This document shows positions 2,896 to 58,221 of a stretch of 64,000 bases of DNA, in pieces. The DNA is from Frondihabitans peucedani (GTDB taxonomy: Bacteria; Actinomycetota; Actinomycetes; Actinomycetales; Microbacteriaceae), in NCBI RefSeq assembly GCF_039537585.1, contig NZ_BAABAU010000001.1, positions 868,001 through 932,000 on the forward strand. Direction: 5' to 3'. Position 1 is the stretch's first letter; each line of letters starts with the position of its first letter. The notes under the pieces were generated by a model. It searched no databases, was not told where the DNA came from, and saw nothing but the letters and a program-made list of their open reading frames with translations. A program made the translations under genes and the position numbers.

Positions 2896-5025
2896 TCAGG
2901 GCGAGACGCGTCGCGACGCCTCGAGGCCCTCGGCCGTGGCCCGCACGGCGTCGACCGAGCGGGCGTCGAGCGCACCGCCGACGAGGTCGAACGGGATGCC
3001 GCGGTCGGCGAGGGAGGCGGCCAGCCCGGCGACGGGCTCCTGGCCGGCGCAGACGATCACGACGTCGGCGGGGATGCGCAGGATCGCGCCCTCGGCATCC
3101 TCGACCTCGAGTGCGCCGGGCACGATCCTCCGGTAGCCCACCTTCTCGACGAAGTGCACGCCCGCCGAGCGGAGCCGGCCCACGGCGACCCAGCGGGACG
3201 AGGGGCCGATGCCGGACCCGAAGCGCCCCGAGCGGCTGACGACGGTGACGTCCGAGCCGGGGCGGACCGGGTGGGGGCGCAGGATGCTCTCGCGCTGAGG
3301 CCTCGACGAGGCGAGGACCCCGTCGCGGGGCAGACCGTGCTCGCTCACGAAGGCCTCGGCCCGGACCGACTCGCGGCCCGACTCCACGAGGTACCCGGCG
3401 GTGTCGATCCCGATCCCGCCGGAGCCGATGATCGCGACGGTTCCCGCTGGCACCCCCTCCCGGAGCGCGCGCTCGTAGCTGAGGACGTGCGGAAGCTCGA
3501 TGCCGGGCACGTCGATCTCGCGCGGCTCGACTCCCGTCGCGACCACGACGTGGTCGAAGCCCTCGAGATCGGCGGCCTCGACGCGCCTGCCGGTCGTGAT
3601 GGAGGCTCCGAGGAGCTCGAGCTCGGCGCGCTGCGACCGGACGGGCGCCGCGTAGTCCTCCTTGCCCGGGATCGCGGCGGCGAGCTCGAACTGGCCGCCG
3701 AGCGACTCGCGGGCCTCGAAGACGCTGACGTCGTTGCCACGCCTCGCGAGGTCGACGGCGGCGGCCAGGCCCGCCGGCCCCGCCCCGACGACCGCGACGC
3801 GGCGGGAGGAGCGCGACGGCACGAGAGGGAACTCGAGCTCGCGCCCGGCCCTGGGGTTGACGAGGCACGAGACCGGCCGGCCGAAGAGCGACCTGTCGAT
3901 GCAGGCCTGGTTGCAGCCGATGCAGGTCGTGACGAGGTCGAACCGCCCCGAGGTGCTCTTGGCGACGATCGCAGGATCGGCGAGGAACGGCCGGGCGAGC
4001 GCGACAGCGTCGACCGCGCCCCGGGCGAGGACGTCCTCGGCATCACGGAGGTCGGTGAGGCGGTTGCTCGCGATGACGGCGACCTCGGGACGGGAAGTCG
4101 CGCGGACGACGCCGGCGATCCGCTCGGCCAGAGGCGCCCAGACGGCGTGAGGGACGGCGGCCTGCACCGTCGGCACGCGCGACTCGTGCCAGCCGACGCC
4201 CACGCTGATCCCGTCGACGCCCGCGGCGACCAGCGCCTCCACCAGCGCGTCGACGTCGTCGGGGGTCGACGATCCGGGCATGAGGTCGTCGCCCGAGATC
4301 CGGACACTCACCGGGAAGCCGTCCGAGACCGCGTCGCGGACGGCGCCCACGACGGCGAGCGCGAAGCGGCGCCGGCGCGACGCCGATCCGCCCCACTCGT
4401 CGTGCCGGAGGTTCGTGATCGGCGAGCAGAACTGGTTGATCAGGTAGCCCTCGGACGCCATGACCTCGACCGCGTCGAACCCGGCGGCCTCGGCAGCGCG
4501 GGCGGCGCGCCCGAAGTCGGCTATCGTCCGCAGGATGTCGTCGTGGCTCAGCTCTCGGGGGACGGCTCCCCTCGCGCCGCGCCACGGCACCGGTGACGGG
4601 GCGACCGCCTGCTCTGGCACTCCGGAGGCGTCCACGAGGCCGTCCGTGAGGGCGTAGCGGCCCGCGTGGAACAGCTGTGCGGCGATCGCTCCCCCGGCGT
4701 CGTGCACCTCGCCGACCGCCCGGCGGACGCGGGCATCCGTCGCAGGATCGCCGAGCACTGCGTAGTCGGCGCCGCCTCGCGCCTCGGAGTTGACGGCCAG
4801 GCCGCCCGTGATGACGAGGTCGGCCCCGCCCTCGACGCGCTCGCGGTAGAACTGCGCGAGCGCGGCCCCGCCGTCGTCCACGACCTCGAGCCCGGTGTGC
4901 ATGCTGCCGACGACGACCCGGTGCGACAGCCGGAGCGAGCCGAGCGCCCAGGGCGTCCGCGTCAGAGCGAGAGCGTCGACCGGCGCCGCCGCGCGGACCG
5001 CCGGGTCAGGAGGCGTCGGAGCCAC
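2896..5025 (-). CDS. 2,4-dienoyl-CoA reductase-like FMN/FAD/4Fe-4S oxidoreductase
   Basis: 709-residue flavoenzyme of the FadH/old-yellow-enzyme class that reduces conjugated dienoyl-CoA esters with NADPH. The N-terminal TIM barrel (about 20-360) keeps the FadH catalytic Tyr194 (SEGYLINQF) and His280 (GVGWHESR). The iron-sulphur motif is exactly CX2CX3CX11C (Cys368, 371, 375, 387). The C-terminal half starts with the FAD-binding GAGPAG (about 414). The GTG start at 5025 overlaps the preceding SDR gene by 20 nt. In this operon it could reduce a cyclohexadienecarbonyl-CoA intermediate, like the FadH-type enzyme of Streptomyces cyclohexanecarboxyl-CoA clusters; a fatty-acid beta-oxidation role is the alternative. 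Confidence 0.85.
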   Translation of the reverse strand: MAPTPPDPAVRAAAPVDALALTRTPWALGSLRLSHRVVVGSMHTGLEVVDDGGAALAQFYRERVEGGADLVITGGLAVNSEARGGADYAVLGDPATDARVRRAVGEVHDAGGAIAAQLFHAGRYALTDGLVDASGVPEQAVAPSPVPWRGARGAVPRELSHDDILRTIADFGRAARAAEAAGFDAVEVMASEGYLINQFCSPITNLRHDEWGGSASRRRRFALAVVGAVRDAVSDGFPVSVRISGDDLMPGSSTPDDVDALVEALVAAGVDGISVGVGWHESRVPTVQAAVPHAVWAPLAERIAGVVRATSRPEVAVIASNRLTDLRDAEDVLARGAVDAVALARPFLADPAIVAKSTSGRFDLVTTCIGCNQACIDRSLFGRPVSCLVNPRAGRELEFPLVPSRSSRRVAVVGAGPAGLAAAVDLARRGNDVSVFEARESLGGQFELAAAIPGKEDYAAPVRSQRAELELLGASITTGRRVEAADLEGFDHVVVATGVEPREIDVPGIELPHVLSYERALREGVPAGTVAIIGSGGIGIDTAGYLVESGRESVRAEAFVSEHGLPRDGVLASSRPQRESILRPHPVRPGSDVTVVSRSGRFGSGIGPSSRWVAVGRLRSAGVHFVEKVGYRRIVPGALEVEDAEGAILRIPADVVIVCAGQEPVAGLAASLADRGIPFDLVGGALDARSVDAVRATAEGLEASRRVSP

Positions 5026-5839
5026 CGAAGACCGCTTCGCGGAGCGGGCTCGTCGTGTCGGCCCAGAAGGGCGGCGCGACGACCGTGAGTCCGCCGTCGA
5101 CCGAGAGCGTCTGGCCGGTGATGTAGCCGGCCTTCTCGGAGAGCAGGAAGTCGACCGCGTCGGCCACCTCGTCGGCCGTCCCCTTCCGCTGCAGCGGGAT
5201 CTTCTCGAGGACGCTCTGCATGGGAGCCATGCCGGGCACGGAGTCGTAGAAGTAGTCGAGCGAGTCGGTGTCGATGAGGCCGCCGTTCACGGCGTTCACC
5301 GTGATGCCGCGCGGGCCGAACTCCGTGGCCATGAACTTGACGTAGGCCTCGTTGGCCGCCTTCGCCGCACCGAGCGAGGCGTAGGTGGGGAACGCGCGGA
5401 GGCTGCCGTAGCTGGTGATGGCGACGATCCTGCCCCCGTCGGGCATGATCTCGGCCGCCGCCTGCGCGCCCAGCACGAAGGAGCGGATGTTGGTCGCGTA
5501 GTTGCGGTCGAGGTGGTGGAGCTTCAGCTGCGACACGGGCTTGAAGGCCGAGGCGGCCGCCGACGCGATGAACATGTCGAGCTTGCCGTAGGTCTCGCGG
5601 ACCGTCGCGAAGACCGCGTCGATCGACTCCGGCTGCTCGACGTCGAGCTGGACGGCGATGCCGTCGGCGCCTGCGGCACGGACCTCGCGAAGAGTCTCGT
5701 CGGCCATCTCGGCGTTCTTCTTGTAGGTGACGACGACGTCGACACCCCGGTTCGCGAGCTTCAACGCCAGCACCTTGCCGATGCCGCGAGAGGCACCGGT
5801 GATGAGAGCGAGGGGGCGGGCGGTGGTGTCGGGAGCCAA
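5006..5839 (-). CDS. SDR-family enoyl reductase (FabL/ChcA-like)
   Basis: 277-residue short-chain dehydrogenase/reductase. The NADP(H)-binding TGASRGIG is at 14-21. The catalytic pair is Tyr153-X6-Lys160 (YASLGAAK), the spacing seen in enoyl reductases such as FabL and FabI rather than the YX3K of ordinary SDRs. The C-terminal ITGQTLSVDGG segment is typical of enoyl/ketoacyl reductases. In the proposed pathway it fits ChcA, the SDR 1-cyclohexenylcarbonyl-CoA reductase that makes cyclohexanecarboxyl-CoA. A FabL-like role in fatty-acid elongation is possible. It follows the acyl-CoA dehydrogenase gene after 58 nt and overlaps the next gene. Confidence 0.8.
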   Translation of the reverse strand: MAPDTTARPLALITGASRGIGKVLALKLANRGVDVVVTYKKNAEMADETLREVRAAGADGIAVQLDVEQPESIDAVFATVRETYGKLDMFIASAAASAFKPVSQLKLHHLDRNYATNIRSFVLGAQAAAEIMPDGGRIVAITSYGSLRAFPTYASLGAAKAANEAYVKFMATEFGPRGITVNAVNGGLIDTDSLDYFYDSVPGMAPMQSVLEKIPLQRKGTADEVADAVDFLLSEKAGYITGQTLSVDGGLTVVAPPFWADTTSPLREAVFGGSDAS

Positions 5840-5897
5840 GTGGGGCCTTTCGTCAGGCGGTGACGCGGTGGGAGGAGGAGAGCCGGGGCGCGGCGGA

Positions 5898-7082
5898 TCA
5901 GTAGTCGACGGCGCCGGTGACGACGGCGCGACCGACGACGAGCTTCTGGATCTCGTTCGTGCCCTCTTCGAAGCGCTGAGCGCGGGCGTCGCGGTAGACG
6001 CGCTCGATCTTGTTGCGCTTCCAGTAGCCCTGACCGCCGTGCACCTGCAGGGCCTTGTCGGTCACCCGGGCGAGCATGTCGACGGCCACCATCTTCGAGG
6101 CGCTCGACAGCACGCCGGCGTCGGGGCGGTCTTCCTCGTAGGCGCGAGCCGCCTCGATCACGAGGGCGCGGGCGGCGGCTATGTCGGCGTAGTTCTCGGC
6201 GAGGTAGAACTGGATCGCCTGGCGGGTCGAGAGCTTCTTGCCGAAGGTCTCGCGGGTGTTGGCGTACTCGACGGCGAGCTGCTGAGCGCGCTCGGCGAGG
6301 CCGACCGCGCTCATCGCGACCGACACCCGGCTCGGCAGCAGGAAGCCGCCGAGGGCGACCTTCAGGCCGTCGCCCTGCTCGCCGAGGAGAGCGGAGGCGG
6401 GCACCGGCGTCTCGGTGAAGCGCAGGATCGCGTGGTCGGTGCCGCGGATCCCCATCGTCTCGGAGTCGTCGATCACCTCGGCGCCCGGCAGACCGGTGTT
6501 CGGCATCAGGAACGCGACGAACCCGTCGGGGGCCGTCGAGCCCTCGATGCGCGCGGCCAGGAGCCAGTAGTCGCACTTCACGCCGAACGTGATCATGTGC
6601 TTCTCGCCGTTGACGTACCAGGTGTCGCCCTCGAGGCGGGCCGTGGTGTGGAGATCCTGCCCCGTCCCGGCAGTCGCCTCGGTGAGGGTGAAGGCCACCA
6701 GCTTCGTCCCGGCGATGGAGGGCTTGACGACCTCCTCGAGCTGCTCGGGGGTCGCGAAGGGGACCATCGCGCGCCAGGTGCCGTTGATCACGTGCACCAG
6801 CATGCGGACCGACGCGTGCGAGCGGGACACGATCTCCATGAGCTCGAGGTAGCGCGAGAACGGGATGCCGCGGCCGCCGAGCTCCACCGGGGCGGCGAGG
6901 CTGAGATATCCGCGGTCGCGGAGCTCGGGGAGGAGGCGGTCGGGGACCTTGCCGGTCGCCTCGATCTCGTCGGCGTAGGCCTCGCCCGGACCCTCGACCC
7001 AGGCGGTGAGGTCGGCCTTGATCGCCTGGAACCCGGCCTCGTCGAACTCGGCGGACACGGTGGGGGCGAGCGTGGTGGTCAT
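5898..7082 (-). CDS. Acyl-CoA dehydrogenase family protein
   Basis: 394-residue FAD enzyme that introduces an alpha,beta double bond into an acyl-CoA. The FAD/substrate region reads AFTLTEATAGTGQDLHTTA (about 150-170), and the C-terminal helical domain carries QVHGGQGY and the catalytic-Glu segment FEEGTNEIQ (Glu373 in the position of the general base). It starts 2 nt after the fusion gene, so it is translationally coupled. Streptomyces cyclohexanecarboxyl-CoA clusters contain one acyl-CoA dehydrogenase homologue; here it would act on a ring-bearing CoA ester. Straight- or branched-chain acyl-CoA degradation cannot be excluded from sequence alone. Confidence 0.88.
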   Translation of the reverse strand: MTTTLAPTVSAEFDEAGFQAIKADLTAWVEGPGEAYADEIEATGKVPDRLLPELRDRGYLSLAAPVELGGRGIPFSRYLELMEIVSRSHASVRMLVHVINGTWRAMVPFATPEQLEEVVKPSIAGTKLVAFTLTEATAGTGQDLHTTARLEGDTWYVNGEKHMITFGVKCDYWLLAARIEGSTAPDGFVAFLMPNTGLPGAEVIDDSETMGIRGTDHAILRFTETPVPASALLGEQGDGLKVALGGFLLPSRVSVAMSAVGLAERAQQLAVEYANTRETFGKKLSTRQAIQFYLAENYADIAAARALVIEAARAYEEDRPDAGVLSSASKMVAVDMLARVTDKALQVHGGQGYWKRNKIERVYRDARAQRFEEGTNEIQKLVVGRAVVTGAVDY

Positions 7083-7084
7083 GA

Positions 7085-10000
7085 TCAGTTCTCCTTGACT
7101 GCGGTGGCCGACGCTGCCACGAGCACGGCGGCCCGCTCGCGCAGCACGTTCTTCTGGACCTTGCCCACGACGTTCCGCGGGATCTCGTCGATGAACTCCA
7201 GCCGCTCGGGCCAGTAGTACTTCGACACCCCCGCGTCGCCGAGGTACTTCTGCATCGCGGCGAACTCGAGGTGGGCGCCGTCTCTCGCCGGCACGACGAA
7301 CGCGCAGGCGCGCTCACCGAGACGAGGATCGGGCATGGCAACGATAGCCGCGTCGGACACCATCGGGTGCTGGTAGAGGAGGTTCTCGATCTCGACGACC
7401 GGGATCTTCTCGCCGCCGCGGTTGATGACGTCCTTCACCCGCCCGGTGATGTGCAGGAAGCCCTTGTCGTCGATCGTCGCGAGGTCGCCGGTCCGGTACC
7501 AGCCGTCGGACGTGAAGACGTCGTCGGTGAGGTCGGGGCGGTCGAGGTACCCGCCGAACATCGTCGGCGAGTTCAGCTCGTAGTTGCCCTCGGTGCCGGG
7601 GGCGACCTCGACGCCCTCGTCGTCGACGATCCTGAGCCGGATTCCGGGCAGCGGCTTGCCGTCGCTCCCCCAGGCGTCTTCGGGGGCGTCGCTCGGGGTC
7701 GAGAGCGCTCCGAGGCAGGTCTCGGACGTCCCGAAGGCGCCGAGCACGCTCGTCTGCAGGACCGCCGTGGCCTTCTGCGCGAGGGCGCGCGGGACCGCGG
7801 CGCCGGTCGCGACGAAGATGCGGAGGCTCTCGGGGACGGGGAGGCCGTGCTCGACCTCCGCCACGAGGTCGGTGAGGAACGGGGTCGCGCACTGCACGAA
7901 CGAGGCCCTCGACGCCTGGAAGGCCTGGGTGAGCGAGACCTGAGGGTCCCACACCGGCTGGATGACGCTGGCCACGCCGAGACGCCACGACAGGAGCATC
8001 CCGTAGAGGAAGCCCGTCTGGTGCGCCAGGGGCGACGGCACGTAGACCCGGTCGTCGGAGGTGAGCCCGAGGTGAGCGACCTCCATCGCGGTCGCGAGGC
8101 CGAGGGTGCGGTGCGCGTGCTGCACGCCCTTCGGCTCGCCCGTGGTGCCGGACGTGAACAGGAGCTGGCAGATGTCGTCGGGCGACGGCGCGAGCTGCCG
8201 GATCCGCTCGTGATCGGGCGTGACGGCCGCGAGAGCGATGTCGTAGTAGCGCCAGTTCCACTCGGAGGCCTCGACGGCCCGGGCGGCGTCGGCCGGAATC
8301 GGTGTCACGTCGCTGTGCGAGGTGACGTCGCCGCGGCTCTCGGAGCGCAGGACGACGACGTGCTCGAGCGACAGCCGCCGCTTCTGCGCGCGCGCCTCGT
8401 CGATCACCTCGAGCAGCTCGATCGCGGGACGACGCCTGCGGAACACGTTGGGGAGGAACACGACGCGGGCCTTCGACCTCGACAGGGTCATCGTCGTCTC
8501 GCGCGGGCCGAACACGGGCATGATCGGCGTCGCGACGGCCCCGATCTGGACGGTCCCGAGCGTGATCGCCACGAACTCCTTCCAGTTCGGCAGCTGCATC
8601 GCGACCGACTCGCCCTTCTGCACGCCGAGCTCGATCAGCAGCTGCGAGACCCGGTCCGCCTCGTCCTGGAGCTCGCGCCAGGTCGTGGTCACCGGCTCGA
8701 CGCCGCCGACCTCGATCACGGCGGGCTCGTCGGGGTGGGACTCGCTCATCGCGCGGACCCTGTCGCTGAGGACCAGCGGATCGGCGTCGACGCCCTGGAG
8801 CTCGAGCGGCTCCGCCTCGAGACCCGCGTCTTCAGACACGTCGTCGCGCTCGAAGTCGACGTTCTCGGCGCTCTCGAGCGACTTCGGGTCTCCCATGTCG
8901 AGGTCGAGGCCGATCGACGTCATCGCCTCGAGGAAGGTCGGATAGGAGATCCGGTAGGCGCGCGGGTAGGTGAGGCTGGTGGCGCCCTCGGCCCTGGTGG
9001 CCGCGATGGCGAGCGACATGAGGACCCGGTGGTCGTTGAACGACGACAGCGGCGCCCCGTGGAGCGGCCCGCGCGCACCGGTCACGCGGAGCTCGTCGTG
9101 CGTCTGCTCGGCCGACCCGCCGAGGTTGTTGAGCTGCAGCATCGCCGAGACGCGGTCGCTCTCCTTCAACCGGATGTGGCCGACGTTCCGGAAGGTCGAG
9201 GTGCCCTCGGCGAAGGTCGCCATCGTCGACAGGATCGGCAGCAGGTCGGGGATCGGCTGGCAGTCGATGTCGATCGCGCGGAGGGTGCCGCCGGGGTTAG
9301 TGATGCGGACGAACCCGGTCTCGTCGTCGATCGAGAACGGCACGCCCATCGACGTCGCCAGGTCGAGGAACTCGGACTCCGGGTGGTCGGTCTCGTCGGT
9401 GCGGAACGTCGACAGCCCGCGGAACAGCACGTCGGACGGGTGGATCGCCGCGGCCGCGATGCCGAAGGCCGCCGAGCCGATGTCGGCGGGGATGACGTAG
9501 TCGTGCGGCGTGGCCGTCTGGCCGGCCGGGATGCGGAAGGTCAGCCAGTCGTCGTCGTGCTCGACCACGAGACCCCAGAGACGCATCATCCGGATCGTGA
9601 GGTCGACGTAGGGCTGCTCGTTCAGCGTGCCGCCGGTGACGTGGATGACCGTGTCCTCCTCGGCGAAGGGGGCCAGGAGGAGGAGGCCCGAGATCCACTG
9701 CGACAGGGTGCCCGCGATGGAGACCTCGCCGCCCCTGGGCCGGACCGGCTGGACGTGGACGGGAGGGCGATCCTGGTCGGCCTCGAGCTGGACGCCCATC
9801 TGCTGGAGCGAGTCGAGGAGCGCCTTGATGGGACGCCTCCGGAAGTACTTCATGCCCGTCAGGGTCATCGGCCGGTCGGCGAGCGACGCGAGCCCCACCA
9901 TGAAGTAGAGCGTGGTGCCCGAGGAGCCCATGTTGAGGAGCCCGTCGGCCCCGCGCGAGCCGTGGTCGACGACGTCGGTCGCCCGGTACGGGCCCCCCTC

Positions 10001-10219
10001 GACGATGTACGTGTCGTCTCTGATCGTGATCTTCGTGCCGAGGGCGCGGAGGGTGCCGACCGTCCACTCGACCTGACGCGTCGTCGAGACCCCGGTGATC
10101 ACGCTCCGCCCCGGGGCGAGCGAGGCGAGGACGAGGGCTCGGTGCGCGTGGTACTTCGACACCGGGACGTCGAGGGCGCCTTCGAGATGGGTGGATGTTC
10201 CGCGCACGACCAGCTGCAT
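7085..10219 (-). CDS. EPSP synthase-like domain fused to an acyl-CoA ligase
   Basis: 1044-residue bifunctional protein. Residues 1-445 are an enolpyruvyl-transferase fold: shikimate-site residues are kept (Lys22, Arg27, Gln174, Asp325, Lys352-Glu353, Arg356, NDHR398), but PEP-contact positions are changed by my alignment to E. coli AroA (Arg124 to Tyr125, Lys411 to Ile424, Arg100 to Tyr105), and Ser23 is Tyr23. After a linker, 475-1044 is an ANL-family ligase with LLFTSGTTGEPKG (686-698), GRVKDVINRGGEK and Lys1020. The ATG at 10219 has AGGAGG about 9 nt upstream. I recall the same fusion as PlmJK of the phoslactomycin cluster, where it starts conversion of shikimate to cyclohexanecarboxyl-CoA. 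Likely role: shikimate dehydration plus CoA activation, not aromatic amino-acid synthesis. Confidence 0.85.
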   Translation of the reverse strand: MQLVVRGTSTHLEGALDVPVSKYHAHRALVLASLAPGRSVITGVSTTRQVEWTVGTLRALGTKITIRDDTYIVEGGPYRATDVVDHGSRGADGLLNMGSSGTTLYFMVGLASLADRPMTLTGMKYFRRRPIKALLDSLQQMGVQLEADQDRPPVHVQPVRPRGGEVSIAGTLSQWISGLLLLAPFAEEDTVIHVTGGTLNEQPYVDLTIRMMRLWGLVVEHDDDWLTFRIPAGQTATPHDYVIPADIGSAAFGIAAAAIHPSDVLFRGLSTFRTDETDHPESEFLDLATSMGVPFSIDDETGFVRITNPGGTLRAIDIDCQPIPDLLPILSTMATFAEGTSTFRNVGHIRLKESDRVSAMLQLNNLGGSAEQTHDELRVTGARGPLHGAPLSSFNDHRVLMSLAIAATRAEGATSLTYPRAYRISYPTFLEAMTSIGLDLDMGDPKSLESAENVDFERDDVSEDAGLEAEPLELQGVDADPLVLSDRVRAMSESHPDEPAVIEVGGVEPVTTTWRELQDEADRVSQLLIELGVQKGESVAMQLPNWKEFVAITLGTVQIGAVATPIMPVFGPRETTMTLSRSKARVVFLPNVFRRRRPAIELLEVIDEARAQKRRLSLEHVVVLRSESRGDVTSHSDVTPIPADAARAVEASEWNWRYYDIALAAVTPDHERIRQLAPSPDDICQLLFTSGTTGEPKGVQHAHRTLGLATAMEVAHLGLTSDDRVYVPSPLAHQTGFLYGMLLSWRLGVASVIQPVWDPQVSLTQAFQASRASFVQCATPFLTDLVAEVEHGLPVPESLRIFVATGAAVPRALAQKATAVLQTSVLGAFGTSETCLGALSTPSDAPEDAWGSDGKPLPGIRLRIVDDEGVEVAPGTEGNYELNSPTMFGGYLDRPDLTDDVFTSDGWYRTGDLATIDDKGFLHITGRVKDVINRGGEKIPVVEIENLLYQHPMVSDAAIVAMPDPRLGERACAFVVPARDGAHLEFAAMQKYLGDAGVSKYYWPERLEFIDEIPRNVVGKVQKNVLRERAAVLVAASATAVKEN

Positions 10220-10456
10220 CGTCTCTCTCCTCCTGTTGCCTGCCTCGGGGCACGACATTGTGAGGGCGAAAACCCTACCCAGCGCAGGTCCCGACGATTC
10301 ACGTTAGCCCACGGGACCTTCCCAGCGAGGGTGTGGGACCGTCTCAGCCTCGTCTCTTGCCATTTCGGTGCAGACCCTGCAAAAATGTCGACCCATCTTC
10401 GGAGGATGCCGACTTGCACGGCCTCGCCCGCCCGTCCTCCTGGCAGGATGACCGGC

Positions 10457-37898: not shown

Positions 37899-39266
37899 TC
37901 ACCCGGCGAAGTCGAAGTCCGCGCCCAGCTTGCGCAGCTTCGCCACGAAGTGCTCGTAGCCGCGGGCGATGATGCCGACGTTGGTGATCTTCGACTCCCC
38001 CTCGGCCGTCAGCGCCGCGATGAGGTGGCTGAAGCCGCCGCGGAGGTCGGGCACGCGGATGTCGGCGCCGTGGAGGTCGGTCGGACCGGTGATGACGGCC
38101 GCCTGCTCGAAGTCGCGTCGCGCGACGCGGCGCTCGACGTTCTTGAGGCCGTCTTTGTGCACGACGATCTTCGCGCCCATGTCGTTGAGCGCCTCGGTGA
38201 ACTGGAAGCGGTTCTCGTAGACCGTCTCGTGCACGATCGAGACGCCGTGCGCCTGCGTGAGCGCCACGACGAGCGGCTGCTGCCAGTCGGTCATGAAGCC
38301 GGGGTGCACGTCGGTCTCGATGACGACCGGCTTGAGCTCGCCGCCCGGGTGGTAGAAGCGGATGCCGTCTTCGTGGACGTCGAACTCGCCGCCGACCTTG
38401 CGGAAGACGTTGAGGAAGGTCATGAGGTCTTGCTGCTTGGCGCCCTCGACGAAGATGTCGCCCTTGGTGGCCAGCGCGGCGGAGGCCCAGGACGCGGCCT
38501 CGTTGCGGTCGTTGATCGCGCGGTGGGTGTAGCCGCGGAGCGACTTGACACCCTCGATGAAGATGACGCGGTTCGGCTCGACGTTCACGATCGCGCCCAT
38601 CTTCTGCAGGATCGCGATGAGGTCCATGATCTCGGGCTCGATGGCGGCGTTCCGGAGCTCGGTGACGCCCTCGGCCAGCACGGCCGTGAGGAGCACCTGC
38701 TCGGTCGCGCCGACGCTCGGGTAGGGCAGCTCGATGTCGGCGCCCTTGAGGCCGTTGGGGGCCGTCAGGTGGATGCCGTTGTACGACTTGTCGACGATGG
38801 CACCGAACGCGCGGAGGGCGTCCATGTGGAAGTCGATCGGACGGTCGCCGATGCGGCACCCGCCGAGGTCGGGGATGAACGCCTCGCCGAGGCGGTGCAG
38901 GAGCGGACCGCAGAACAGGATCGGGATGCGGCTCGAGCCGGCGTGAGCGTCGATCTCGGCGAAGTGCGCGCCCTCGACGTTCGACGGGTCGAGGATCATC
39001 TCGCCGCGAGCCGGGTCGGTGATGCGGACGCCGTGGATCGAGAGGAGCCCGCGCACGACGTTGACGTCGGAGATGTCGGGGACGTCTTTCAGGATGCTCG
39101 GGGTGTCGCCGAGCAGGGACGCCACCATCGCCTTGGTGGCGAGGTTCTTGGCGCCGCGGACCTCGATGCGGCCGATCAGCGGCTTGCCGCCTCGGATGAC
39201 GATCTCGTCGGACTTCAGGCCCACGCGGGCCCCCGCTGCTGCTGCATCCTGGACAAGGGAGTTCAC
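37899..39266 (-). CDS. murA: UDP-N-acetylglucosamine 1-carboxyvinyltransferase MurA
   Basis: First committed step of peptidoglycan precursor synthesis. GTG 39266 is chosen: GGTGAA lies upstream and the G-T-G shares one base with the leuD stop (TAGTG). 455 aa. Lys40-Asn41 (RGAKN) and the PEP-reactive Cys137 (LGGCRIGDRPID) are intact, so fosfomycin sensitivity at the target is expected. It is a second enolpyruvyl-transferase fold in the window, unrelated in role to the fusion at 7.1-10.2 kb. Confidence 0.94.
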   Translation of the reverse strand: MNSLVQDAAAAGARVGLKSDEIVIRGGKPLIGRIEVRGAKNLATKAMVASLLGDTPSILKDVPDISDVNVVRGLLSIHGVRITDPARGEMILDPSNVEGAHFAEIDAHAGSSRIPILFCGPLLHRLGEAFIPDLGGCRIGDRPIDFHMDALRAFGAIVDKSYNGIHLTAPNGLKGADIELPYPSVGATEQVLLTAVLAEGVTELRNAAIEPEIMDLIAILQKMGAIVNVEPNRVIFIEGVKSLRGYTHRAINDRNEAASWASAALATKGDIFVEGAKQQDLMTFLNVFRKVGGEFDVHEDGIRFYHPGGELKPVVIETDVHPGFMTDWQQPLVVALTQAHGVSIVHETVYENRFQFTEALNDMGAKIVVHKDGLKNVERRVARRDFEQAAVITGPTDLHGADIRVPDLRGGFSHLIAALTAEGESKITNVGIIARGYEHFVAKLRKLGADFDFAG

Positions 39267-46310: not shown

Positions 46311-47417
46311 TCAGGCGTCGAGGCGCGTGAGCCAGCCGTGCGGGTCGGGGCGACGGCCGTACTGGATGTCGGTGAGCTCGGCGCGGAGCGACAGCGTCAG
46401 CGAGTCGGGCCCGGCGACCGGCGACACGATGGAGAGACCGTCGCCCTTGAGCTCGGCGATCGGCACGACCACGGCCGCCGTGCCGCAGGCGAACACCTCG
46501 ACGATCTCGCCCGAGGCGACGCCCTCGCGCCACTCCTCGAGACTCACGCGGCGACGCTCGACCCGGTGGCCCCGGTCTTCGGCGAGCTGCAGGATCGAGT
46601 CGCGCGTGATGCCCTCGAGGATCGAGTCGGACGCCGGAGTGACCAGCGTGCCGTCGCGCTTCACGAAGACGACGTTCATGCCGCCGAGCTCCTCGATGTA
46701 GGTCGTGTCGACCGAGTCGAGGAACAGCACCTGCGAGCAGCCGTTGGCGTACGCCTCCTCTTGCGGGAGGAGCGACGCGGCGTAGTTGCCGCCGGTCTTC
46801 GCAGCCCCCGTGCCGCCCTTGCCGGCGCGCGAGTACTGGGTCGACAGCCAGATCGAGACGGGCTCGACGCCGCCCGGGAAGTAGGCGCCCGCGGGGCTCG
46901 CGATGACGTAGTAGCCGACGCGGTGAGCGGCGCGGACCCCGAGGAACGACTCGGTCGCGATCATGAAGGGCCGGAGGTACAGGCTCGTCTCGGGCGCGCT
47001 GGGCACCCAGTCGCGGTCGACGCTGACGAGCTGCTTGAGCGACTCGACGAAGTCGTCGACGCTGAGCTCGGGCAGCGCGAGGCGGGCGGCCGACCGCTGG
47101 AGGCGGCGTCCGTTGGCATCGGCGCGGAAGGTCCAGATCGACGAGTCGGCGTGGCGGTACGCCTTGATGCCCTCGAAGATCTCCTGCGCGTAGTGGAAGA
47201 CGGAGGCCGCCGGGTCGAGGACGAGGGGGCCGTACGGGACGACCTTCGCGTCGTGCCAGCCCTCCTCGGTGGTCCACTCGATCGACACCATGTGGTCGGT
47301 GAAGTGCCTGCCGAAGCCGGGGTCGGCGAGGACGGCCTCGCGCTCGGCGTCGGCGCGGGCGGCGGCCGAGGGGGTGAAGTCGAAGTGGAGGGGGAACGTG
47401 TCGTTCGTCGTGGTCAT
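46311..47417 (-). CDS. ilvE: Branched-chain amino acid aminotransferase
   Basis: PLP enzyme making valine, leucine and isoleucine from their keto acids. Fold-type IV class II form, 368 aa. The catalytic Lys lies in AAKTGGNYAASL, with EIFEGIKAYRH near the N-terminus and ITRDSILQLAEDRG further on. It lies 9 nt downstream of leuB, so the two are co-transcribed. Confidence 0.95.
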   Translation of the reverse strand: MTTTNDTFPLHFDFTPSAAARADAEREAVLADPGFGRHFTDHMVSIEWTTEEGWHDAKVVPYGPLVLDPAASVFHYAQEIFEGIKAYRHADSSIWTFRADANGRRLQRSAARLALPELSVDDFVESLKQLVSVDRDWVPSAPETSLYLRPFMIATESFLGVRAAHRVGYYVIASPAGAYFPGGVEPVSIWLSTQYSRAGKGGTGAAKTGGNYAASLLPQEEAYANGCSQVLFLDSVDTTYIEELGGMNVVFVKRDGTLVTPASDSILEGITRDSILQLAEDRGHRVERRRVSLEEWREGVASGEIVEVFACGTAAVVVPIAELKGDGLSIVSPVAGPDSLTLSLRAELTDIQYGRRPDPHGWLTRLDA

Positions 47418-47426
47418 CAGAGCGTC

Positions 47427-48539
47427 CTATCGAGAAGAGGTGGCGAGACTCGAGGCGGCCGCGGCGATCGCGTCGCCGATCTCGGTCGTCGTCCTGGCCC
47501 GGCCTGCCGGGTTCGCCGCGCCGGCGTCCGACGAGCCGGCCGAGGCGCGACCCTCAATATCGACCTCCACGGCCCTCGTCACCCTGGCCGCCTCGTCGGG
47601 GAGACCGAGGTGGTCGAGGAGGAGCGCCGTCGAGAGGATCGCCGCCGTCGGATCGGCCTTCTGCTGGCCGGCGATGTCGGGAGCGGAGCCGTGCACCGGT
47701 TCGAACATGCTGGGGAAGGCGCCGTCGGGGTTGATGTTGCCCGAGGCTGCCAGTCCGATGCCGCCGCTGATCGCGCCGGCCAGATCGGTGAGGATGTCGC
47801 CGAAGAGGTTGTCCGTGACGATGACGTCGAACCTAGCAGGATCGGCGACCAGGTGGATGGTCGCGGCGTCGACGTGCTGGTAGTCGACCGCGACCTCGGG
47901 GTACTCCGCGGCGACCGCGTCGACGGTCCGCTGCCAGAGGGACCCGGCGAAGACGAGGACGTTCGTCTTGTGCACGAGCGTCAGGCGGTGCGCCGGGCGC
48001 TTCTGCGCGAGCTCGAACGCGTAGCGGACCACGCGCTCGACGCCGAACGCCGTGTTGACGCTGACCTCGTTGGCGATCTCGTGGGGCGTGCCGGTGCGGA
48101 GCGAGCCGCCGTTGCCGACGTACGGGCCCTCGGTGCCCTCGCGGACGACGACGAAGTCGACGGCGCCCGGGTCGGACAGCGGCGACGCGACGCCCGGGTA
48201 CACCTTCGTCGGGCGGAGGTTGACGTAGTGGTCGAGCGCGAACCGGAGCTTCAGGAGGAGCCCCCGCTCGATGATGCCGCCCTTGAGCGCAGGATCGCGC
48301 GGATCGCCGCCGACCGCCCCCAGGAGGATCGCGTCGTGCGACGAGATCGCCTCGAGGTCGCTCTCGGTCAGGATGTCGCCGGTCGCCGTGAAGCGCGCCG
48401 CGCCGAGCGAGAACTCGGTGACGTCGAAGGCGACGTCGCTGCCGTCGGTGACGGCGCGGAGCACCTTGAGAGCCTCGGCCACGACCTCGGGCCCGATCCC
48501 GTCGCCCGGGATGCTGGCGAGTCTGATCGTGCGGCTCAT
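47427..48539 (-). CDS. leuB: 3-isopropylmalate dehydrogenase
   Basis: NAD-dependent oxidative decarboxylation in leucine synthesis. ATG 48539 with AAGGAG six nt upstream gives [23 protein letters not shown]. 370 aa. Mg/isopropylmalate site [20 protein letters not shown] and NAD-binding [13 protein letters not shown] are intact. An Ala/Gly/Ser-rich insertion lies near the C-terminus (about 326-350) compared with typical LeuB. Confidence 0.95.
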
Positions 48540-52969: not shown

Positions 52970-54529
<1,560 letters not shown>

Positions 54530-54533
<4 letters not shown>

Positions 54534-56392
54534 GCGTGTTCTCCGGTCATGTCGCCGTCGCGGGTGGTGTCGGTGGCGCTCGTGCCCGGCGCCTCGTCGT
54601 CCCACTCGGGAGCGAGCTCGCGCGCGTGCTGGATCAGGGAGTTCGAGACCCCCTGGGGCACCATCGGCCAGACCATGGCGTCGCGGCTGACGACGAAGTC
54701 GATGACGACCGGGCGGTCGTTCGTCTCGAGCGCGAGCTTGATCGCCGCGTCGACCTCGTCTTCGCGACGCACCCGGATGCCGAGGGCTCCGTACGCGTCG
54801 GCGAGCTTGACGAAGTCGGGGACCATCCGGGTCTCGTGACCGGTGTTGAGGTCGGTGAAGGAGTGACGGCCCTCGTAGAACAGGGTCTGCCACTGGCGCA
54901 CCATGCCGAGCGACGAGTTGTTGATGATCGCGACCTTGATCGGGATGTCGTTGATGACGCAGGTCGCGAGCTCCTGGTTGGTCATCTGGAAGCAGCCGTC
55001 GCCGTCGATCGCCCAGACCACGCGGTCGGGCTGCGACACCTTCGCCCCCATGGCGGCGGGCACGGAGTAGCCCATGGTGCCGGCGCCGCCGGAGTTCAGC
55101 CAGGAGTTGGGGCGCTCGTACTCGATGAACTGCGCGGCCCACATCTGGTGCTGGCCCACGCCCGAGGCGTAGACGGCCTCCGGGCCGGTCAGCTGACCGA
55201 TGCGCTGGATGACCTTCTGCGGCGAGAGCAGGCCGTCGTCGGGCTCGGCGTAGCCGAGCGGGAACTCGGCGCGGAGCGAGTCGAGGCGCTCCCACCAGGC
55301 CGTCAGGTCGGGCCTGCCGCCGCCTGCGACGTCGGCGAAGGCGGCGGTCAGGTCGAGGATGACCTCGCGGGCGTCGCCCACGATCGGCACGTCGGCGATC
55401 CTGATCTTGGAGATCTCGGCCGGATCGATGTCGACGTGCACGACCTTGGCGTCGGGCGCGAAGAGCTCCGCCTTGCCGGTCACCCGGTCGTCGAAGCGGG
55501 CTCCGAGGGCGACGATCAGGTCGCTCTCCTGGAGGCCGAGGACGGCGGGGACGGTGCCGTGCATGCCCGGCATGCCGAGGTGCTGGCGGTGGGAGTCGGG
55601 GAACGCGCCGCGGGCGGTGAGCGTGGTGACGACCGGGGCGCCCGTGGCCTCGGCCAGGCGGAGGAGCTCGCGCGAGGCCTCTGAGCGGATGACGCCGCCG
55701 CCGACGTAGAAGATCGGCCGCTCGGCGTCGGCCAGGAGCTGCGCGGCCGCGGTGATCTGCTTGCCGTGCGCCTTGGTGATGGGGCGGTAGCCGGGCAGGT
55801 CGACGGTCTCGGGCCAGACGAACGGGGCGGAGTTCTGCTGGGCGTCTTTGGTGATGTCGACGAGCACGGGGCCGGGACGACCCGTGGAGGCGATCTGGTA
55901 GGCCGCGGCGAGCGTGGCCGGGATGTCTTCGGGCTTCGTGACCAGGAAGGAGTGCTTCGTGATCGGCATCGTGATGCCGACGATGTCGGCCTCCTGGAAC
56001 GCGTCGGTGCCCATCAGCGTCGAGAAGACCTGGCCGGTGATGGCGAGCAGCGGGACGCTGTCCATGTAGGCGTCGGCGATCGCGGTGACGAGGTTCGTCG
56101 CGCCGGGCCCGGAGGTGGCGATGGCGACGCCGACCCGGCCGGACGCCGCGGCGTAGCCCTCGGCCGCGTGGCCGGCGCCCTGCTCGTGGCGGACCAGGAT
56201 GTGGCGGATCGTCTTCGACGCCATCAGCTCGTCGTAGAACGGGATGATCGCGCCGCCGGGAAGCCCGAAGACGTCGGTGACGCCGAGCTTCTCGAGGGAC
56301 CGCAGGATCGCGCCGGATCCGGTCAGCACCTCGGGTGTCGTCTGGCGGGCGCGCGCGGGCGCCATGGGCAGGGGGCTTGCTTCTGGAGGCAT
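54530..56392 (-). CDS. ilvB: Acetolactate synthase large (catalytic) subunit
   Basis: ThDP-, FAD- and Mg2+-dependent condensation of pyruvate to acetolactate or acetohydroxybutyrate. 620 aa. [16 protein letters not shown] near the N-terminus, the catalytic Glu in [16 protein letters not shown], and the ThDP motif [29 protein letters not shown] are intact. It is 53 nt downstream of ilvD. Confidence 0.97.
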
Positions 56393-56445
56393 CGGTGCCG
56401 ATTCCCTTGTAGCTGGTGGTGAACGAGTGGACCGCTCGCGGTGCG

Positions 56446-58221
56446 TCAGTACGTGACGGCACCTTCCGCGGCGGAGCGGACCTGCCGGGCGTACTTGGCG
56501 AGGACTCCGCGGGTGTACACGGGCGGGAGAGGTGCCCAGCCGTCACGGCGAGCGTCAAGCTCAGCCTCGTCGACGAGTAGGTCGAGTGAGCGAGCAGCGA
56601 TATCGACCCGAATCAGATCACCATCGCGCACGAAGGCGATCGGACCTGCGTCGACCGCTTCGGGTGCTATGTGGCCGATGCACAGGCCGGTTGTGCCGCC
56701 TGAGAATCGTCCGTCCGTCAAGAGTAGTACATCTCGACCGAGACCCGCGCCCTTGATGGCCGCCGTGATGGCGAGCATCTCGCGCATGCCGGGGCCGCCC
56801 TTCGGGCCCTCGTAGCGGATGACCACCACGTCGCCCTTCGAGATTCGGCCCTCGGTGAGGGCGTCCATGGCGGCGCGCTCGCGCTCGAACACTCGGGCGG
56901 GGCCCTCGAAGACGTCGGCGTCGAAGCCGGCCGTCTTGACGACGGCACCCTCGGGAGCGAAGGAGCCGCTGAGGACGGTCAGGCCGCCGGTCGGGTGGAT
57001 CGGGTTGTCGAGCGTGCGGAGGACGGTGCCGTCGAGGGCCTTCGGCTTGATCTCGGCGAGGTTCTCGGCGACGGTCTTGCCGGTGACGGTGAGGCAGTCG
57101 CCGTGCAGGAGGCCCGCGTCGAGCAGCGCCTTCATGACGACGGGCACGCCGCCGTGGCGGTCGACGTCGTTCATCACGTACTCGCCGAACGGCTTGAGGT
57201 CGCCGATGTGCGGGACCTTGTCGCCGATCCGGTTGAAGTCGTCGATGGTCAGGTCGACCTCGGCCTCGTAGGCGATGGCCAGGAGGTGCAGCACCACGTT
57301 CGTCGAGCCGCCGAAGGCCATCGCGACGGCGATGGCGTTCTCGAAGGCCTCCTTGGTCAGGATGTCGCGGGCGGTGATGCCGAGGCGCAGCATGTTCACG
57401 ACGGCCTCGCCGGAGCGGTGGGCGAAGTAGTCGCGGCGGCGGTCGGCGGAGGGCGGCGACGCGGAGCCGGGGAGGCTCATGCCGAGGGCCTCGGCGACGG
57501 AGGCCATCGTGTTGGCGGTGTACATGCCGCCGCAGGCGCCCTCGCCCGGGACGATCGCGCACTCGATGGCGTGGAGGTCTTCCGCGGAGATGGTGCCGGC
57601 CTTCGCCGCGCCCACCGCCTCGAACGAGTCGATGATGGTGACGTTCTTCTCGGTGCCGTCGCTCAGCTTCACCCAGCCCGGCGCGACCGAACCGGCGTAG
57701 AGGAACACGCTGGCCAGGTCGAGGCGGGCGGCTGCCATCAGCATGCCCGGGAGCGACTTGTCGCAGCCGGCCAGCAGGACGGAGCCGTCGAGGCGCTCGG
57801 CCATCATGACGGTCTCGACGCTGTCGGCGATGACCTCGCGCGAGACGAGCGAGAAGTGCATGCCCTCGTGGCCCATCGCGATGCCGTCGGAGACCGAGAC
57901 GGTGCCGAACTGCAGCGGGTAGCCGCCGCCCGAGTGAACGCCCTCCTTGGCGCCCTGCGCGAGGCGGTTGAGCGACAGGTTGCAGGGGGTGATCTCGTTC
58001 CAGGACGAGGCGATGCCGATCTGCGGCTTGTCCCAGTCCTCGTCGCCCATGCCGACGGCGCGGAGCATGCCGCGCGACGTGGTCGCCTCGACGCCGTCGG
58101 TGACGTCGCGGCTGCGGGGTTTGATGTCGATCGGCACAGCGTCGATGGGCCGAGCGTCGATGGTCGTCGCCTCGGTGGTCGCGGCGTCGGCGCCGGACGG
58201 GGTGCGCTCTTCTGCAGGCAT
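56446..58221 (-). CDS. ilvD: Dihydroxy-acid dehydratase
   Basis: Iron-sulphur enzyme dehydrating dihydroxy acids in valine and isoleucine synthesis. 591 aa. Cluster cysteines are visible in [30 protein letters not shown] and [14 protein letters not shown]. The N-terminal 40 residues carry a degenerate [12 protein letters not shown] repeat. The 3' end (about 56530-56750) has lower GC (blocks near 58%) and more A/T-ending codons than the rest. It heads the ilvD-ilvB-ilvH-ilvC group. Confidence 0.96.

Follow-up and report, generated by a model that had tools for sequence, protein, structure and literature searches.

Gene content and setting of the operon

The stretch of DNA analysed here, hereafter the window, covers 64,000 nucleotides of Frondihabitans peucedani (Microbacteriaceae; contig NZ_BAABAU010000001.1, positions 868,001 to 932,000 of the forward strand). 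It carries an operon of four genes, studied here as a candidate gene set for the conversion of shikimate to cyclohexanecarboxyl-CoA (CHC-CoA). An earlier note on this DNA had placed the four genes, tightly packed, on one strand between 2896 and 10219; this layout was borne out, on the minus strand, by the coordinates of the open reading frames (ORFs) and by Pfam. The first gene encodes a fusion of an EPSP-synthase-like domain with an acyl-CoA ligase; the others encode an acyl-CoA dehydrogenase (ACAD), a short-chain dehydrogenase/reductase (SDR) and a FadH-like flavoenzyme. The features are as follows.

7085-10219, minus strand: fusion ORF, 1044 aa, EPSP-synthase domain plus AMP-forming acyl-CoA ligase; frame open to an ATG at 10258
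8894-10219, minus strand: EPSP-synthase-like domain of the fusion, named AroL here, residues 1-442 from the Met at 10219
7085-8893, minus strand: acyl-CoA ligase part of the fusion, AMP-binding and AMP-binding_C, including linker and stop codon
5898-7082, minus strand: ACAD, 394 aa, assigned by Pfam, EGTNEIQ at residue 373
5006-5839, minus strand: SDR with enoyl-reductase spacing, 277 aa, FabL-type by best NCBIfam model and PDB relative, Y-x6-K
2896-5025, minus strand: FadH-like flavoenzyme of the 2,4-dienoyl-CoA-reductase type, 709 aa, matching 1ps9 at 498 bits, 4Fe-4S-type motif
10229-10234, minus strand: Shine-Dalgarno-like AGGAGG for the fusion start at 10219, assigned from the sequence

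The start of the fusion was set at the ATG at 10219, behind the AGGAGG motif, and the Met encoded there (M1) is invariant in 19 aligned sequences. The fusion and ACAD genes are 2 bp apart, the ACAD and SDR genes 58 bp, and the SDR and FadH genes overlap by 20 bp. On one side the operon is flanked by rpsP, rimM and trmD, and on the other by a glutamate-cysteine-ligase-family gene, ffh and ftsY; the ligase-family gene was named by family search, the other five by eye. For AroL, ACAD, SDR and FadH, the ratio of nonsynonymous to synonymous substitution (dN/dS) was 0.09-0.27 in comparisons with two congeners and 0.20-0.42 in that with one genome of another genus. Because the gene set recurs, in unchanged order, in many other genomes, and because dN/dS stays within 0.09-0.42, the operon is not a product of chance.

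Family assignment and relation to antibiotic-linked operons

The CHC-CoA gene set is known from antibiotic clusters. We take an operon of this kind (ans/plm type) to be defined by five parts, an EPSP-synthase-like protein, an acyl-CoA ligase, an ACAD, a ChcA-type SDR and a FadH-like reductase; in the window, all five are encoded together. Use of a cyclohexylcarbonyl-CoA gene cluster for doramectin is cited in the consulted part of one paper (PMC6693128). In Pfam searches, the fusion matched EPSP_synthase (265.8 bits) and AMP-binding (229.5 bits), and a nearest-structure search returned EPSP synthase as the solved relative of AroL and AMP ligases as those of the ligase part. The ACAD matched Acyl-CoA_dh_1 (138.6 bits), with acyl-CoA dehydrogenases as solved relatives; a motif of the EGTNEIQ form, whose Glu is presumably the catalytic residue, was present in 83 of the 95 proteins of its neighbourhood cluster. 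The SDR matched adh_short_C2 (208.6 bits) and has Y-x6-K at residue 153, a motif found in 74 of 94 cluster proteins. Its best NCBIfam model was the enoyl-ACP reductase FabL (234.9 bits, under the cut-off of 328) and its best solved relative 3oic, also an enoyl-ACP reductase. By position and class we take it to be ChcA-like. The FadH-like protein matched Oxidored_FMN (201.3 bits) and Pyr_redox_2 (87.6 bits), and its best solved relative, 1ps9, is a 2,4-dienoyl-CoA reductase. It carries a 4Fe-4S-type CxxCxxxC-x11-C motif at residue 367, and 72 of 76 cluster proteins have a motif of such form.

Some family matches point towards breakdown. The best NCBIfam model of the ligase part was TIGR03208, cyclohexanecarboxylate-CoA ligase (431.4 bits, under the cut-off of 792.3), and the ACAD matched two cyclohexane-carbonyl-CoA dehydrogenase models, both under cut-off (179.6 versus 650 and 108.7 versus 575.35). 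Such matches would suit a catabolic or salvage pathway degrading shikimate or cyclohexanecarboxylate via CoA esters. However, no hydratase, thiolase or ring-cleavage gene lies within the window operon, the reductive SDR and FadH pair accompanies it in 69 of the 106 distinct stretches of our survey set (28 fetched, 78 named), and homologues sit with genes related to 3-amino-5-hydroxybenzoate (AHBA) synthesis and with ketosynthase (KS), KASIII and acyl-carrier-protein (ACP)-sized genes. A catabolic function is therefore very unlikely.

The operon was then compared with that of Streptomyces sp. MMG1121 (locus L136). Identity to the window was 57% for AroL, 55% for the ligase, 61% for the ACAD, 61% for the SDR and 50% for FadH. 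Beside the L136 operon are genes for an 'AHBA synthesis associated protein' (TIGR01454, 345.1 bits, cut-off 246.65), a type II dehydroquinate dehydratase (172.8, cut-off 130) and an adenylation protein of the nonribosomal peptide synthetase (NRPS) type (423.5, cut-off 317.4) and, under their cut-offs, for a class II DAHP-synthase-like protein and a sugar-aminotransferase-like pyridoxal-phosphate protein. The MMG1121 genome has 45 KS matches, in frames of up to 5185 aa. AHBA genes next to such an operon are presumably what an ansatrienin-type cluster looks like. The AHBA-linked L136 serves here as a surrogate for the named ans, plm and asu proteins (ansJ/K/L/M with chcA in the ansatrienin-type clusters).

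Within the F. peucedani genome, the best paralogues among those compared were AroA at 32%, a ligase at 28%, an ACAD at 29%, an SDR at 31% and an OYE-family protein at 31%; the set comprised all listed matches to PF00275 (n=2), ligase (n=15), ACAD (n=4) and OYE (n=2), and 29 of 63 SDRs. As these reach only 28-32%, the operon genes are not recent recruits of the genome's own enzymes. A beta-oxidation origin was rejected, every domain being nearer to operon counterparts elsewhere than to the own paralogues compared; the ACAD is at most 29% and FadH at most 31% identical to own paralogues, which are not themselves established as beta-oxidation enzymes. The earlier note had named phylogenies that side with beta-oxidation enzymes as one outcome that would speak against it. 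Checked by identity, the proteins side with the ring-antibiotic operon instead (50-61% to L136 versus 28-32%), and its claim of a shikimate-to-CHC-CoA set is well supported. On this sequence evidence, the operon is very probably such a gene set.

The EPSP-synthase-like domain deserves separate treatment. The fusion scores above the curated aroA equivalog cut-off (TIGR01356, 302.3 versus 287.25 bits), as it would if a second AroA had simply been joined to a fatty-acid ligase unrelated to it, the other three genes encoding ordinary beta-oxidation enzymes. We aligned 107 AroL sequences, from the 106 stretches and the window, using E. coli EPSPS numbering. Ser23 is replaced by Tyr in all 106 readable sequences (one row is cut there), Ser169 by Leu and Ser197 by Glu in 107 of 107, and Lys411 by Ile in 104 of 107. 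A separate canonical AroA (L001), 32% identical to AroL, is encoded elsewhere in the genome and keeps the three serines and the lysine. Equivalents of K22, R27, R124, S170, Q171, D313, K340, E341, R344, H385 and R386 are kept in every readable AroL row, although the own AroA deviates or is misaligned at D313 and K340. His in place of N336 is non-diagnostic, the own AroA likewise having His there. We take serines 23, 169 and 197 to be those that bind shikimate-3-phosphate. With these residue roles, the replacements by Tyr, Leu and Glu mean that the pocket for the 3-phosphate is altered and negatively charged, a change that would suit, for instance, shikimate itself as the substrate. Together with the nearness of all domains to operon counterparts in other phyla rather than to the own paralogues compared, this leaves the second-AroA explanation hardly credible, and we rejected AroL as a true AroA.

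Further searches with AroL gave little. A tblastn search of the plasmid collection returned one match only, an Ilyobacter record annotated aroA (30%), and a literature search on EPSPS residues returned little or nothing. A tree was built from 93 of 108 rows (15 were dropped, mostly near-duplicates, including the contig-cut L064); the outgroup lay too far away for rooting, and nothing was concluded from the tree. The third PF00275 gene of the genome lies in the window (37899-39224, minus strand) and is MurA by TIGR01072, above cut-off.

Distribution and variant operons

AroL was found in 42 of 398 Microbacteriaceae genomes, belonging to 14 of 85 genera (E<=1e-90), and in all seven genomes examined of the window's genus. 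In a phylum-wide sample it was found in 5 of 396 genomes, the own genome counted (E<=1e-75). All 25 family stretches examined around AroL show AroL, ligase, ACAD, SDR and FadH at a coverage of at least 40%. With rpsP and rimM present in 13 of these 25, the chromosomal position is common to several genera. In two loci of the window's genus, frame breaks or partial coverage affect the fusion (L040) and FadH (L040 and L063), as assembly errors or decay would produce.

For the named genomes, the survey kept the top 80 of 255 relatives by rank against a distant lead sequence chosen for broad taxonomic spread. Of the 106 stretches, 69 hold all five parts; they come from at least three phyla. Carriers include Streptomyces, Lentzea, Actinoplanes, Sinomonas, Herbiconiux, Conexibacter, Candidatus Eremiobacterota and Alicyclobacillaceae; the last two are metagenome-assembled genomes (MAGs), whose assignments may include misbinned contigs. 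Herbiconiux, Alicyclobacillaceae and some other carriers encode AroL and the ligase separately. A number of the stretches with fewer parts are cut by contig ends. Three others, from Streptomyces endocoffeicus (L078), S. rugosispiralis (L119) and Lentzea sp. NBRC 105346 (L089), have an AroL-type gene with Glu197 and Leu169 and, within the stretch, no ligase, ACAD, SDR or FadH of the operon type. These lone genes possibly serve another shikimate-derived product.

In some carriers the SDR, FadH or both were not found near AroL, and several of these have a linked oxidoreductase gene of the luciferase-like monooxygenase (LLM) class. Such a gene lies near AroL in L058, L093, L096, L102, L104, L107, L108, L109, L113, L122, L131 and L144, the class being assigned by a family search on L058 only (4277-5293; TIGR03617, F420-dependent LLM class, 421.5 versus 278.15). 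In 11 of these 12 stretches the SDR and/or FadH was not found, L104 and L109 being short contigs; L122 has both. It is as if the LLM-class enzyme stood in for a ring reductase. In Herbiconiux oxytropis CPCC 203407 (L135, 9998-15020), AroL, ligase and ACAD genes are followed directly by the gene which in L118 (9998-18329) comes after SDR and FadH. No SDR and no full FadH match was found in the L135 stretch, and this partial operon looks like a natural loss of both genes.

Such variants would allow a partly reduced, cyclohexenyl acyl-CoA as the product, or a product that varies among carriers as their reductases differ. For the window this is highly improbable, as its operon has both reductases with intact motifs.

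Proposed pathway, probable lipid role and comparison with known systems

As proposed here, the operon would convert shikimate to CHC-CoA. AroL, its phosphate-site serines lost, would act on unphosphorylated shikimate or a close derivative and activate or remove a hydroxyl, and the fused ligase would form the CoA ester. In alternating steps, the ACAD, the FadH-like dienoyl reductase and the SDR-type enoyl reductase would then take away the hydroxyls still left and reduce the ring. The product would prime the type II fatty-acid synthase (FAS) through FabH-type and then FabF-type enzymes encoded elsewhere in the genome, leading to omega-cyclohexyl fatty acids, e.g. 11-cyclohexylundecanoate, in the membrane. 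The order of reactions follows the ansatrienin/phoslactomycin pathway; this order, each reaction and the lipid end use are what we infer. The window also encodes proteins that resemble, by eye, IlvE, LeuB, IlvC, IlvN/B and IlvD (46311-48539 and 52970-58221, minus strand); these would supply branched FAS primers in competition with the ring primer.

The earlier note had described the operon as lacking a polyketide cluster, and for PF00109 this holds genome-wide. The genome has two ketosynthases only, with open frames of 423 and 426 aa, and a modular polyketide synthase (PKS) elsewhere in it was thereby rejected. A FabH-type gene adjoins one of the two KS genes. At Pfam level, then, FabH- and FabF-type genes that could in principle take the primer are present, and no modular PKS competes with them. 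In other carriers, a ketosynthase is the commonest neighbour family after the operon's own genes (33 of 106 stretches; two of the 33, L075 and L081, are type II PKS-like and L089 has AroL alone). It lies upstream in the Eremiobacterota MAGs. In Streptomyces, Streptosporangiales, Acidothermus and the Microbacteriaceae loci L055 and L061 it lies downstream, directly after fadH in the last two. When single ketosynthases were scored against the curated fabF cut-off of 493.75, two of three tested passed (L055, 494.5; L137, 502.1). In six carrier genomes (Sinomonas, Microlunatus, two Herbiconiux, two Alicyclobacillaceae), no KS-matching frame exceeded 649 aa.

Could CHC-CoA be made for a small molecule, such as an N-acyl compound, a non-modular polyketide or another acylated product, rather than for a membrane lipid? 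Close homologues are indeed tied to secondary metabolism, through the AHBA and NRPS genes at L136 and, at L075, a tandem KS pair, two KASIII genes and an 84-aa ACP-sized gene. Moreover, any acyltransferase could draw on the CHC-CoA pool, and the own genome has two more matches to the KASIII family and 15 more to AMP-binding. On the other hand, the window operon has housekeeping neighbours conserved across several genera, the genome has no modular PKS, and retention of the operon by 7/7 genomes of the genus would be unusual for secondary metabolism. We consider a small-molecule product unlikely. One KASIII-type gene of the genome (L149, C7:46807), above the NF006720 '3-oxoacyl-ACP synthase III' cut-off (436.8 versus 285), lies about 1.5 kb from an AMP-binding domain. 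The two look like an OleA-type head-to-head olefin pair.

Published lipid profiles bear on the proposed lipid role. Curtobacterium pusillum belongs to the same family as the window's organism. It contains a cyclohexyl fatty acid according to the consulted passages of two papers (PMC3426160, PMC5023266). The genus description of Herbiconiux, an operon carrier, agrees with the lipid reading in the part consulted: 'Cyclohexyl-C17:0 may be present' (PMC10011130). In the same way, passages of two papers give omega-alicyclic acids as characteristic of several Alicyclobacillus species (PMC3035248, PMC5023266) and as the ground for erecting that genus (PMC5023266), and part of a further report mentions omega-alicyclic genes, unnamed, in Sulfobacillus (PMC4378227). 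A literature search on cyclohexyl lipids in Microbacteriaceae and Humibacter returned little or nothing, and an Agrococcus paper (PMC9323897) was set aside since, in the part consulted, it concerns a different compound.

Several observations weigh against a lipid role. No fab gene adjoins the window operon among the neighbours inspected. The KS of the Eremiobacterota MAG locus L083 scores 376.3, under the fabF cut-off, and in Streptomyces L075 and L081 the operon lies near a tandem KS pair of type II PKS-like character, the first KS of L075 also being under that cut-off (311.5). H. oxytropis, carrier of the partial operon, has anteiso and iso acids as its major acids in the consulted part of its description (PMC10011130). 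The Alicyclobacillus family, from which the strongest support would have been expected, does not give it: AroL was found in just 5 of its 41 genomes (E<=1e-70; completeness of the assemblies not given), all five holding the complete gene set, although omega-alicyclic acids are typical of several species. Either the E cut-off hides divergent Alicyclobacillus genes or most producers may use another route. Across taxa, Herbiconiux agrees with its genus description, and the Alicyclobacillus family shows no simple fit.

Overall, the lipid role claimed by the earlier note draws indirect support from the absence of a modular PKS, retention in all seven genus genomes examined, a position common across genera, ketosynthases near the operon elsewhere and the mention of cyclohexyl-C17:0 in the description of Herbiconiux; what it fails to gain is a clean match with the Alicyclobacillus family. 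Taking both sides together, we think that the operon probably supplies omega-cyclohexyl membrane fatty acids.

Thermoacidophiles are classically marked by omega-cyclohexyl fatty acids, which food work uses as a biomarker. The literature consulted, in the parts seen, names no genes for these acids beyond the unnamed Sulfobacillus report (PMC4378227). If the lipid reading is true, the trait would be predictable from genomes and wider among mesophiles than chemistry suggests, and the genes would offer a handle on the function of ring-tipped lipids. With SDR and FadH missing next to its operon, H. oxytropis offers a natural comparison among Herbiconiux strains. Independently, the EPSPS-like part is likely misannotated, scoring above the curated AroA cut-off yet without the phosphate-site serines of true AroA. 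A broader idea, which we put forward tentatively and would not bet on, is that this operon serves bacteria generally as the locus for making cyclohexyl lipids from shikimate. It would be an FAS-coupled module, kept over a long time in several phyla (Actinomycetota, Eremiobacterota/Vulcanimicrobiota, Bacillota and perhaps more) and frequently accompanied by a ketosynthase of its own. The Streptomyces polyketide versions would be offshoots, and the EPSPS-like enzyme a distinct shikimate-processing family hidden in databases as AroA.

Comparison with known systems places the operon as follows. With EPSP synthase AroA, AroL has the protein family and the kept residues listed above in common; it differs by S23Y, S169L, S197E and K411I, in a genome that has its own AroA. 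Among omega-cyclohexyl producers (Alicyclobacillus, Sulfobacillus, Curtobacterium pusillum, Propionibacterium cyclohexanicum and Herbiconiux), five Alicyclobacillus-family genomes carry all five genes and Herbiconiux carries the operon. In these five Alicyclobacillus-family genomes, however, the genes are unfused and FadH and SDR divergent, and 36 of 41 genomes of the family lack AroL at the cut-off. The type II PKS-linked, asukamycin-like operons of L075 and L081 share the AroL-ligase fusion, ACAD and SDR in the window's order, but have a tandem KS pair alongside and no FadH found in either stretch, whereas the window operon has FadH; a literature search on asukamycin genes returned little or nothing. 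Finally, the ansatrienin-type surrogate L136 shares the five domains, the gene order, the AroL-ligase fusion and 50-61% identity per domain. Its operon lies by AHBA and NRPS genes, in a genome with KS frames of up to 5185 aa, whereas that of the window lies between ffh and rpsP in a genome without a modular PKS. The window operon is thus a further representative of the known CHC-CoA set, in a non-polyketide setting.

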